A DNA stretch of 44,872 nucleotides from Gemmatimonadota bacterium (GCA_002712305.1 PATE01000090.1:5239-50110), one strand, 5' to 3'. Counted from the stretch's first letter, positions 30,426-34,032 are shown. Notes: generated by a model from the letters alone, not told the origin. Program-made: numbers and translations.

Positions 30426-30530
30426 ACGTTTCGGTGCACTCGTCGTAGGTAGGCTGCAGAGCACGCAAGCCTGACCACGTGAGTTCATACTACGTTTGGG
30501 TGGAAGACCCGGATCTGTGGAGTGCTGAAG

Positions 30531-32495
30531 ATGGCGACCAGCAAGACAGCCAGTCGTGGACATCCCCTGAGATGGCGGGCCGTCGTCACAGGCCTGGGTG
30601 GCTGTCTGTGCATCGGTCTCGGTACGCAGTTCGGTGAGATGATGACGGGCGCGTCAAGGATGGCCAGCGGCTTCACCACGGGGGCTGCACTGTTCCTGTT
30701 CTTCTTCCTGGTGGGCGCCATCAATCCGGCGCTGAAGAGGATCCGACCGAGCTGGGCACTGCGACGTGCTGAACTGTTGCTGGTGTACGGGATGATGATG
30801 GTCGCGTGCGCGCTGCCAACGACGGGACTGGTCGCCTACCACCTGCCGATTATGGTGCTCAGCTTCTACTACGCCACGCCGGAGAACGACTGGGCACAGG
30901 TGATTCATCCCTTCATCCCCGACTGGTTGGCGCCCCAGGATCCGGCAGCGATCAAACACTTCTTTGAAGGTCTGCCTCAGGGAGAGAGCGTCCCGTGGGG
31001 TGTGTGGGCTGTGCCCCTGGCGTGCTGGGGTATGTTCTTCGTCGCCCTGTATCTAGTGATGATCTCGGTGGCCGTCATCCTGCGCCGGCAATGGATGGAG
31101 CACGAGAACCTGATCTATCCCATTGCACATGTGCCGCTGGCCATGGCTCAAGAGGACGAGTCAGGATCAGCGGTCAACCCCTTCTTCAGAAACGGGTTGA
31201 TGTGGTTGGGATTCGCCCTGCCCGTGCTGCTGACGACGGCAGAGGCACTGCACCAGTATGATCCGATCTTCCCCACCGCCAACAGTGTCCTCTACCCGGG
31301 GACGACCGTGCCCATCTTGCGAAATGCGACACCGATCAGTTTTCTGCTCAGCTTTCCGATCCTGGGGTTTTCCTATCTGATCAGGCTGGAAGTGGCCTTC
31401 GGATTCTGGTTCTTCAACATCCTTTCCAGTGTTCTGCTGGGCGTATTCCGCATCACGGGGATTCATAGCACCGAGCACCTGGACTTCGCCGCCAACTCAC
31501 CCATCCTGGCACACCAGGGCATGGGTGCGATGATCGTGTTGTGCTTGGGGGGCCTTTGGATGGCTCGTGGCCACTTGCGCACCGTTTGGCGCGGTGCCGT
31601 CGGCCCGCAAGGAGAGGTCAACGACGACGACGAGATCATGTCCTATCGCGCTGCAGTGTTCAGCACCCTGGGCGGGTTCCTCGTCATGGCCATGATGCTC
31701 AATGCTGCGGGTCTTCCCCTCTGGGCGGCCGTGACGATGCTCGTGGTGGCCTTCATCCTCTTTGTCGGGATCACGCGCATTGTTGTCGAGGGTGGGATGG
31801 CCTCGTGTCGTGCACCGTTGATCGCACCCAACTTTGTCGTCTCCGGCATGGGCACCAGCGCCCTGGGTGAAAGCGGAATGACCACCCTCGCCTTCACCTA
31901 CTCGTGGGCCGGAGATGTGCGCACCTTCGTGATGGCCTCGGCTGCCCACGCCTTGAAACTGCTGGACGAAGCGTCTGTGGGCGGCAACCGCAGGATGGTC
32001 TTCTGGAGTCTGGCCGCTGCAGTCGTGGTCACGATGGCGAGCTCGTGTTGGATGATGCTGACCCTTGCCTACGAATACGGCGGGATCAATCTCAACGCCG
32101 GGTATTTCCAGTTGATCACAATGACGCCATTCCGATACCTTGATGTCTACTTGAAGAATCCGACACTGCCCAACCTCGGCGGCTGGCTGCAAACGGGGGT
32201 CGGTGCTGGACTGATGGCGTTGTTGATGTTCCTGCGTCAGCGATTTCTCTGGTGGCCCCTGCATCCGCTGGGTCTGCCGATCAGTGCCACGCGGATCATG
32301 GATCTGGTCTGGTTCAGCGTGTTCCTGGCCTGGTTCTTGAAACTCGTGATCCTCAAATACGGGGGCCCGGGAATGTTTGTCCGGATGCGACCGTTCTTTC
32401 TGGGGATGATCCTTGGGCAGTTCGTCTCCGCCGGCGTATGGATCGTCATCGACTATTTCACCGGCATGCAGGACAACATGGTTTTCGTGATCTGA
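30531..32495 (+). CDS. DUF6785-type polytopic membrane protein (OPT-like transporter)
   Basis: This 654-aa integral membrane protein has about 13-14 hydrophobic segments (for example FTTGAALFLFFFLVGAI, GMFFVALYLVMISVAVIL, AAVTMLVVAFILFVGI and LMALLMFLRQ). Conserved signatures are 'RRQWMEHENLIYPIAHVPLAM', 'FGFWFFNILSSVLLG', 'TRIVVEGGMASCRAPLIAPNFV' and 'NLNAGYFQLI'. The family is of unknown function but resembles oligopeptide-type transporters. ATG 30531 has GGAG eight bases upstream; the track's GTG 30522 does not. It is followed 26 bases later by two coupled amidohydrolase-fold genes, so it may import their substrate. Confidence 0.85.
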   Translation: MATSKTASRGHPLRWRAVVTGLGGCLCIGLGTQFGEMMTGASRMASGFTTGAALFLFFFLVGAINPALKRIRPSWALRRAELLLVYGMMMVACALPTTGLVAYHLPIMVLSFYYATPENDWAQVIHPFIPDWLAPQDPAAIKHFFEGLPQGESVPWGVWAVPLACWGMFFVALYLVMISVAVILRRQWMEHENLIYPIAHVPLAMAQEDESGSAVNPFFRNGLMWLGFALPVLLTTAEALHQYDPIFPTANSVLYPGTTVPILRNATPISFLLSFPILGFSYLIRLEVAFGFWFFNILSSVLLGVFRITGIHSTEHLDFAANSPILAHQGMGAMIVLCLGGLWMARGHLRTVWRGAVGPQGEVNDDDEIMSYRAAVFSTLGGFLVMAMMLNAAGLPLWAAVTMLVVAFILFVGITRIVVEGGMASCRAPLIAPNFVVSGMGTSALGESGMTTLAFTYSWAGDVRTFVMASAAHALKLLDEASVGGNRRMVFWSLAAAVVVTMASSCWMMLTLAYEYGGINLNAGYFQLITMTPFRYLDVYLKNPTLPNLGGWLQTGVGAGLMALLMFLRQRFLWWPLHPLGLPISATRIMDLVWFSVFLAWFLKLVILKYGGPGMFVRMRPFFLGMILGQFVSAGVWIVIDYFTGMQDNMVFVI

Positions 32496-32521
32496 GCGTT
32501 CAGCTGAAGAGGTGGGAACTG

Positions 32522-33289
32522 ATGAGAATCGATTTCCAGACCTATCTGCCCGACACCTTCGATGGCCGGTCCTTCGGTCCAGATGAGTTACGCGCGCTGG
32601 CAGCGGAAGGGAGCGTCGAGCGCTGTGTCGTGATGCCCTCGGCTCAGCCCCAACCAGACAATGCCGCCCTTGCCAGGCGAATCGACGCGCAGCCAGAGAT
32701 GATCGGCTGTGCAGCGTTGAACCCGGCTCGTGGATCCGAGGTGGTAGACGAACTGGAGCAGGCCGTTCACGAGTGGGGATTCATGGGTCTGCGGCTCTAC
32801 CCGGCGACGCACGGGTATGACCTCGACAGCAGCGATGTTGATCTGCTGCTGGCCAAGGCCCTGAATCTGCAGCTGCCGGTGACCGTCGACGGCTGTCGGG
32901 AGCACTGCTCGCCCGCCCAGGTGAGCGAACTTGCCAGCCGATTCCCCGACGTGCCGTTCATCGTCGACGTCGGCTTCCGCCCCAGTGCTCCCCCGGTGAG
33001 CATGAAGATCCCCCTGCCTCCTGAAGGACGAATCGCCGAGGTCGCCGAGTCGGTGCCCAACGTGTATCTAGGGCTGACCACCGTGGCCTCCGTCGAACTC
33101 TACTGTATCAAACGACTCATGGGAGTCTGTGGCCCACAAAAACTCATCTTCGGCTCGAACGCTCCCCATGGCATTCCTCAGTTCGGCGTACGCGGCTTCC
33201 AGATGGGAAATCTGCCACCCGAAGAAGAGGAGGCCATCCTCGGAGGCACCTTGGCGCGGTTGTATCGATTGGGGGGAGAGGAGCGATGA
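32522..33289 (+). CDS. Amidohydrolase-2-like TIM-barrel protein lacking metal ligands
   Basis: 255 aa from ATG 32522 (GAGGTGGGAA just upstream); the track start at 32252 lies in the preceding gene. Barrel features include 'MIGCAALNPARG', 'EWGFMGLRLYPATHGYDL' and 'LIFGSNAPHGIPQFG'. In the amidohydrolase-2/ACMSD family the N-terminal strand carries HxH and the last strand an Asp (GSD). Here the start is MRIDFQTYLPDTFDG with no His, the middle strand reads 'VTVDGCR', and the last has 'GSNAPH' with Asn. All metal ligands therefore appear absent, so it may be a non-catalytic partner of the next gene. Its end overlaps the following start by four bases. Confidence 0.8.
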   Translation: MRIDFQTYLPDTFDGRSFGPDELRALAAEGSVERCVVMPSAQPQPDNAALARRIDAQPEMIGCAALNPARGSEVVDELEQAVHEWGFMGLRLYPATHGYDLDSSDVDLLLAKALNLQLPVTVDGCREHCSPAQVSELASRFPDVPFIVDVGFRPSAPPVSMKIPLPPEGRIAEVAESVPNVYLGLTTVASVELYCIKRLMGVCGPQKLIFGSNAPHGIPQFGVRGFQMGNLPPEEEEAILGGTLARLYRLGGEER

Positions 33290-34032
33290 AGATCTTCGAT
33301 TGCGAAGCATACCTGCCCAACAGCGGAAATCCCTATCTGTGCGGGGACTCTTTCGAGGCGGCCGACCTGATTCGCATGCTGGACGAGGTCGACACCGAAG
33401 CCGTCCTCACGATTCCCGCCCCCGAAGCCCCGTTGGAGGGCTCCGGCTGGGAGCAGACGAACAACCGGACCATGCACACGGCCATGGCTGAATACCCTGG
33501 CAAGATCCTGGGCTGCTGCGTGGTCAATCCCGCCGATGGGGATGCCGCCGTTGATGAGTTTGAGAAAACGGTGAAGGAGTGGGGATTCTCGGGCCTGAAG
33601 TATTCACCCGGCCTGGAGGGCACCGCCGCCGACCTGGCCAAGGCGGCGGCAGAGATGGAAATCCCCGTGACCATCCATACGAACGGTTCCGTCGATGCGT
33701 ATGAACGCATCGCTGGACTGGCCAAGCGTCATCCCGAGTTGGTGATGGTCCTCGAACACATGGGATATCGGTTCCATGTCGACCTCGCCATCGACCTTGC
33801 CCGGCGGTTCGAAAATATTTACCTGGCGCCCACCGTCACGGCCGCCGCCGAACCCATGGTTGTCAAGAAAGCGGTCGAAGAGGTTGGAGCCGAACGGATG
33901 GTCTTCGGTTCCAACGCGCCATGGGCGGCGCCTGTTTTCGGCGTCGAAGCCATCCGAAGACTCCGGCTGGGCGACGCTCAGGAGCATCTGATCTTCCGAG
34001 GGAACTTCCAGCGGATCTATCGTCTGGAGTGA
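33286..34032 (+). CDS. Amidohydrolase-2-like TIM-barrel protein with altered metal site
   Basis: This 248-aa paralogue of the preceding gene is coupled to it by ATGA and a GGGGAGAGGAG ribosome binding site. It keeps 'VTIHTNGSVDAYERIAGLAKRHPELVMVLEHMGY', containing the His residues normally used on barrel strands 5 and 6. The N-terminal HxH is replaced by 'FDCEAYLP', and the last-strand Asp is Asn in 'VFGSNAPWAAP'. 'GFSGLKYSPG' and 'CCVVNPADG' match the family framework. The function is unknown. With one copy partly and the other fully stripped of ligands, the pair may act as an obligate heteromer. It is co-transcribed with the DUF6785 transporter. Confidence 0.85.
   Translation: MKIFDCEAYLPNSGNPYLCGDSFEAADLIRMLDEVDTEAVLTIPAPEAPLEGSGWEQTNNRTMHTAMAEYPGKILGCCVVNPADGDAAVDEFEKTVKEWGFSGLKYSPGLEGTAADLAKAAAEMEIPVTIHTNGSVDAYERIAGLAKRHPELVMVLEHMGYRFHVDLAIDLARRFENIYLAPTVTAAAEPMVVKKAVEEVGAERMVFGSNAPWAAPVFGVEAIRRLRLGDAQEHLIFRGNFQRIYRLE

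Follow-up and report, generated by a model that had tools for sequence, protein, structure and literature searches.

Two tandem amidohydrolase-fold proteins with altered metal sites encoded next to a DUF6785 gene in a Gemmatimonadota bacterium

A metal site is the usual defining feature of the amidohydrolase superfamily. Two of its members, LigI and Gli, are not known to need a divalent metal, and in some aspartate transcarbamoylases the dihydroorotase-like protein PyrC' is a non-catalytic amidohydrolase partner. In ACMSD, zinc is ligated by His9, His11, His177 and Asp294 while His228 is catalytic, and in the ACMSD dimer Arg239 is supplied by the neighbouring subunit (PMC11650718). Here, we describe two adjacent genes, A and B, which encode amidohydrolase-fold proteins with altered metal sites and lie downstream of a transporter-like gene, T, in a stretch of 44,872 nucleotides from a Gemmatimonadota bacterium (GCA_002712305.1 PATE01000090.1:5239-50110; hereafter, the window). 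An earlier reading of the window made from the sequence alone (the sequence-only reading) had proposed that the three genes form one operon with a conserved new function. The features are as follows.

30531-32495, plus strand: T, transporter-like gene; polytopic membrane protein with DUF6785 and DUF6784, a presumed transporter
32522-33289, plus strand: A; amidohydrolase-fold protein of 255 amino acids with a lost active site, probably a pseudoenzyme subunit
33286-34032, plus strand: B; amidohydrolase-fold protein of 248 amino acids with a rewritten site, probably the catalytic subunit
33286-33289, plus strand: ATGA overlap of the A stop codon and the B start codon, read from the sequence as translational coupling

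A and B are 29% identical across their full length, and both exceed the curated cut-off of 26.4 bits for the Pfam family Amidohydro_2 (PF04909; A, 3.1e-24, 86.7 bits; B, 2.1e-22, 80.7 bits). At the position of the strand-1 HxH motif, A has QTY (Q6, Y8) and B has EAY (E7, Y9), and the strand-8 Asp is replaced by Asn in both proteins (N213 in A, N210 in B). The strand-5 and strand-6 histidines are present in B (H131 and H158) while A has D123 and a gap; the remaining site residues are K105 in B and R91 in A. This is the pattern that the sequence-only reading had described, i.e. HxH missing from both paralogues, the same D-to-N change on the last strand in both, and the strand-5 and strand-6 histidines present in the second protein and lost from the first. 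Relatives show these states again, which speaks against chance or a sequencing error as their source.

Using a profile built from A, B and their first relatives, we searched 64 genomes of the phylum, comprising the 47 genomes of the class and 17 further genomes. The search delineated a clade of 32 proteins in 24 of the 64 genomes, i.e. 22 single-copy proteins, five A proteins and five B proteins. In the class, the members of the clade scored 302-364 bits and the next matches 132 bits and below, and no member was found in the 17 genomes from outside the class. HxH is absent from all 32 proteins, which have either E-x-Y (the 22 single-copy and the five B proteins) or Q-x-[YFW] (the five A proteins) at this position; likewise, the strand-8 Asp is absent from all 32, with Asn in 31 and His in one. 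The strand-5 and strand-6 histidines are present in B and every single-copy member and in no A protein. The nearest relatives with normal motifs (DFHGHVG and FGSD), one of which is encoded in the genome of the window, lie outside the clade. The only member with His at the strand-8 position is A of locus G025:C48 (L062:6266-6997), in which the motif reads FGSHAP. No relatives were found in viral contigs, and a plasmid search detected only generic amidohydrolases at 23-32% identity and no DUF6785.

The absence of HxH and Asp from 32 of 32 members bears out the proposal that the altered site is a conserved state rather than the product of random decay. The two suggestions of the sequence-only reading for the new function, a heteromer or a metal-free enzyme, remain the best reading, but the step from the shared D-to-N change to a heteromer needs correction. 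The losses of HxH and Asp are fixed in the 22 single-copy relatives and, thus, predate the A-B pair; being older than the pair, they are on their own no argument for a heteromer. Moreover, A and B differ in state.

In the alignment of the 27 single-copy and B proteins, 20 of the 248 columns are invariant and these include all six classical active-site positions, i.e. E7, Y9, K105, H131, H158 and N210 in B numbering (p about 1e-7 if columns were drawn at random). That these six positions are invariant in proteins whose mutual identity is only about one third points to a working site in the single-copy and B proteins, which are probably active enzymes without the classical metal site. The five A orthologues have Q, an aromatic residue, R, Asp or Glu, a gap, and Asn or His at the six positions, and these replacements are themselves conserved (Q, R and the acid each in 5/5). 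The departures of A from the 20 invariant columns fall mostly at active-site columns, and the structural invariants N60, G85, G100, A146, G160, T183, F207, G208, P212, E233 and Y245 (B numbering) are retained. The pattern in A is that of a pseudoenzyme or of a re-purposed pocket.

Both proteins, each modelled as a single chain, are predicted with high confidence to form a (beta/alpha)8 amidohydrolase barrel (predicted local distance difference test (pLDDT) 93.0 and predicted template modelling score (pTM) 0.91 for B; pLDDT 91.5 and pTM 0.90 for A). In a structure search with the two models, the top PDB matches were all amidohydrolases, the nearest being gamma-resorcylate decarboxylase, ACMSD-type decarboxylases and 3cjp. 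In a profile search of solved structures, 3cjp matched at 2.9e-13, ACMSD at about 4e-8 and LigI at 8.4e-5; LigI ranked behind 3cjp, 3irs, 3nur and the ACMSD-type decarboxylases, and LigI and Gli (COG3618) are not the closest sequence relatives. E7, Y9, H131 and N210 of B probably correspond to His9, His11, His177 and Asp294 of ACMSD, and H158 to His228.

The sequence-only reading had also considered that A and B might never co-occur elsewhere. In fact, A and B are found in tandem, with A first, at five loci in four genomes: the window (genome G000), G015:C77, G025:C6, G025:C48 and G046:C35. G015:C77 is from a metagenome-assembled genome named Gemmatimonadaceae bacterium COS4_bin_9 (L018, JAPOZM010000109.1), and the G015 contig was the only match when genome contigs were scanned with the single protein B. 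The 4-base overlap of A and B is also present at G025:C6, and gaps of 1, 34 and 103 bases separate the two genes at the other loci. All five loci have intact reading frames, and A was never found without a neighbouring B among the 47 genomes of the class. The A proteins and the B proteins are each recovered as a single well-supported clade, with the common branching order (G025:C48,((G025:C6,G046),(G000,G015))). With five loci, these matching trees show that the two genes are inherited as a unit; that the proteins are in contact does not follow. A sister relationship of A and B is neither shown nor rejected (approximately unbiased (AU) test, p 0.115).

In the comparison with G015, A is 66% identical and B is 81% identical. 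The corresponding rates of nonsynonymous (dN) and synonymous (dS) substitution are 0.26 and 1.15 for A (dN/dS about 0.22), 0.13 and 1.15 for B (dN/dS about 0.11) and 0.17 and 0.96 for T (dN/dS about 0.18). Despite dS being near saturation, purifying selection on A, B and T is clear.

Tandem pairs of a degenerate and a canonical amidohydrolase are present in several other families of the phylum (L134-L137, L140, L141, L074 and L077). Among the degenerate proteins are one with MTIDGYCTLG, lacking HxH, and one with FDANAMLG and FGTGMP, and a canonical example has IDCHTHWG and WGTDFG. In addition, three single open reading frames (ORFs) of 529-534 amino acids join a canonical to a degenerate Amidohydro_2 stretch, either of which may come first (L075:5081-6667, L138:2175-3761 and L139:1187-2788). 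By analogy only, since they belong to other subfamilies, these tandem and fused pairs support the idea that A and B are an enzyme and its partner.

Simple codon-usage gene calls, which include wrong-frame ORFs, served for orientation only. A uronate-dehydrogenase-like gene of the short-chain dehydrogenase/reductase (SDR) type lies at most about 2 kb from a single-copy member in G025, G038, G040, G041, G043 and G044, i.e. in G025 and in all five single-copy genomes of family f4; the linkage is found in families f2 and f4 only. The best solved relatives of the neighbouring SDR are uronate dehydrogenases (6mfh, 3ay3 and 3rft; 7.6e-34), and its best NCBIfam model is the NAD-dependent glucose-6-phosphate dehydrogenase Azf, with a score below the cut-off of that model. 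In G025, the gene order is tartrate-dehydrogenase-like, uronate dehydrogenase (Udh)-like, transporter-like and single-copy member. In G043, the uronate-dehydrogenase-like gene (L128:5391-6141) is split over two overlapping frames, either by a real frameshift or by an assembly error.

The reading that we prefer, and to which we give about an even chance, is of B as an enzyme whose site is non-classical and perhaps free of metal, with A as its pseudoenzyme subunit in a heteromer. As the sequences of the clade show, the classical mononuclear metal site (strand-1 HxH, strand-5 His and strand-8 Asp) has long since given way to Glu-x-Tyr, Lys, His, His and Asn. B and the single-copy relatives would then act by metal-free acid-base catalysis via the Glu, the two His and the Tyr, or would use a metal held by different ligands, while A may complete or regulate B in the heteromer, like the neighbouring subunit of dimeric ACMSD. 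Since A has kept the barrel, lost the site, is under purifying selection and always lies beside B, a pseudoenzyme subunit would be its simplest account. Several observations weigh against this reading. The models cover the single chains of A and B, and co-inheritance of neighbouring genes requires no physical contact. The dN/dS ratios are rough because of the high dS. The strand-8 Asn, which is the one site residue that A retains, is kept in four of the five A proteins and, therefore, A may still bind something; in B, a metal could still be coordinated by E7, H131 and N210. As for the substrate, the dehydrogenase linkage was found neither in family f3 nor near the A-B pairs, and uronate-dehydrogenase-like genes are numerous (2-11 per genome). 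A bolder form of the preferred reading, which we offer tentatively and consider doubtful, is that the heteromer is obligate, that the stripped A completes B, whose Glu-x-Tyr, Lys, His, His, Asn site catalyses without metal, and that the pair is one case of a wider tendency in the phylum for degenerate amidohydrolase domains to be paired with, or fused to, intact ones.

Some of the same evidence can be read in other ways. The clade might bind a catalytic metal through shifted ligands (the strand-1 Glu, the strand-5 His and the Asn or Tyr), in which case B would be an ordinary metal-dependent amidohydrolase and A an inactive copy. The invariance of E7, Y9, H131, H158 and N210 in 27 proteins fits this possibility, as does the superfamily alignment, in which E7, Y9, H131 and N210 probably occupy the positions of the ACMSD ligands (PMC11650718); however, every member has other residues in place of both HxH histidines and of the Asp, and none has the classical set, and we regard shifted ligands as possible without favouring them. 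We think it unlikely that A and B are independent enzymes or binding proteins that are co-transcribed and form no heteromer, the Q, R, acid and Asn of A then lining a different pocket. The conserved replacements in A and the purifying selection on it agree with such independence, and the AU result leaves room for A to be an old lineage with time for a function of its own; yet no A lacks an adjacent B in the class, and other amidohydrolases of the phylum have a degenerate and a canonical domain fused together. Random decay of copies on their way to loss would suit the faster divergence of A than of B and the patchy distribution of the pair, which occurs in 4 of 47 genomes, but the intact frames at all five loci, the recurring states, dN/dS values well below 1, conserved replacements and high-confidence folds make it very improbable, and decay of one copy was rejected.

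Uronate dehydrogenase yields galactaro-1,5-lactone, and Gli, of the amidohydrolase superfamily, acts on that lactone (PMC6353982). In six genomes, single-copy relatives adjoin a gene of the uronate-dehydrogenase-like type, which weakly suggests a sugar-acid lactone, or a compound like it, as the substrate. In its specific form, which is compatible with the preferred reading but which we judge rather improbable, B and its single-copy relatives would be Gli-like sugar-acid lactone hydrolases or isomerases acting on the product of the neighbouring Udh-like enzyme. The solved relatives of this neighbour, the G025 gene run and the match between the Udh product and the Gli substrate all speak for it. 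Against it, the linkage is confined to two families, and the solved lactonase LigI matched more weakly than ACMSD-type proteins (8.4e-5 vs 2.9e-13 for 3cjp). Since neither f3 nor the A-B loci show the linkage and such dehydrogenases abound, the guess is a weak one.

T starts with ATG at 30531 (a GTG is also present at 30522) and matches DUF6785 (PF20581; 3.4e-124, 415.6 bits) and DUF6784 (PF20580; 1.8e-29, 102.3 bits), both above the curated cut-offs. It ends 26 bp upstream of A and, unlike A and B, is not coupled by ATGA. T directly precedes A-B at two of the five loci, i.e. in the window and in G015 (L018; 74% identical). At G025:C6, G025:C48 and G046:C35, the stretches that were read contained no DUF6785 gene, although the contig of the last reaches only ~1 kb upstream of A. 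Moreover, each of the 47 class genomes has DUF6785 genes, with 4 to at least 25 copies and 17 in the genome of the window. Because DUF6785 is so common and adjacent at only two loci, T is a local partner and not part of a core, and we rejected DUF6785 as the defining partner in a three-gene core. The sequence-only reading had suggested asking whether the pair plus DUF6785 recurs: the pair does, whereas DUF6785 mostly does not recur with it. In total, we conclude that the three-gene T-A-B operon is real in one lineage and is not a conserved unit. A profile search for solved structures related to DUF6785 gave none at E up to 10, and no paper in the literature searched named DUF6785. A transport role of T is presumed from its membrane character, and in the lineage of the window the DUF6785 protein would have joined the operon probably for import of the substrate.

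Other DUF6785 copies in the genome of the window adjoin sulfatases (L117 and L118), and at L125 a further copy and a uronate-dehydrogenase-like gene are divergently oriented. The same genome contains a conserved trio, at L123:2207-10000 and L126:3212-11702, of a DUF6785 protein, a protein of ~1500 amino acids and a membrane-like protein of 656 amino acids without a Pfam match; between the two loci, identity is 46% over the part compared.

A clade with other invariant residues in place of the metal site suggests that the amidohydrolase barrel can be re-used for other chemistry, and the label 'amidohydrolase family protein' would mislead for these genes. The clade offers a natural test, in that single-copy members have one chain while in A-B pairs the site is in one chain and stripped from the other. 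If a metal-free B is completed by a stripped A, the pair would represent a new catalytic arrangement in the superfamily. Moreover, intact and degenerate amidohydrolase domains recur as pairs and fusions in the phylum and provide a set of testable enzyme-pseudoenzyme partnerships.

Compared with described systems, T is a plain member of the DUF6785 membrane proteins with nothing unusual. A and B share a Pfam family and a predicted barrel with the ACMSD type (ACMSD, gamma-resorcylate decarboxylase and LigW), and B also retains the strand-4 lysine and the strand-5 and strand-6 histidines; however, all 32 clade members lack the zinc-ligating HxH and the strand-8 Asp and are about 75-90 residues shorter, and A also lacks the two histidines. 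CAC3332 (3cjp), an uncharacterised Clostridium amidohydrolase, is the best solved relative by profile and is alike in size and fold (template modelling (TM) scores 0.76 and 0.72), but the alignment spans the C-terminal half only and CAC3332 has FGTD there instead of the FGSN of the clade. LigI and Gli belong to the same superfamily and may share a pathway context with uronate dehydrogenase; LigI is a weak match and, unlike the clade, retains HxH and Asp. Finally, as an inactive amidohydrolase-fold subunit retained in a complex, PyrC' suggests what A might be, although it belongs to another subfamily and its partner is a transcarbamoylase, whereas the partner of A is itself an amidohydrolase.

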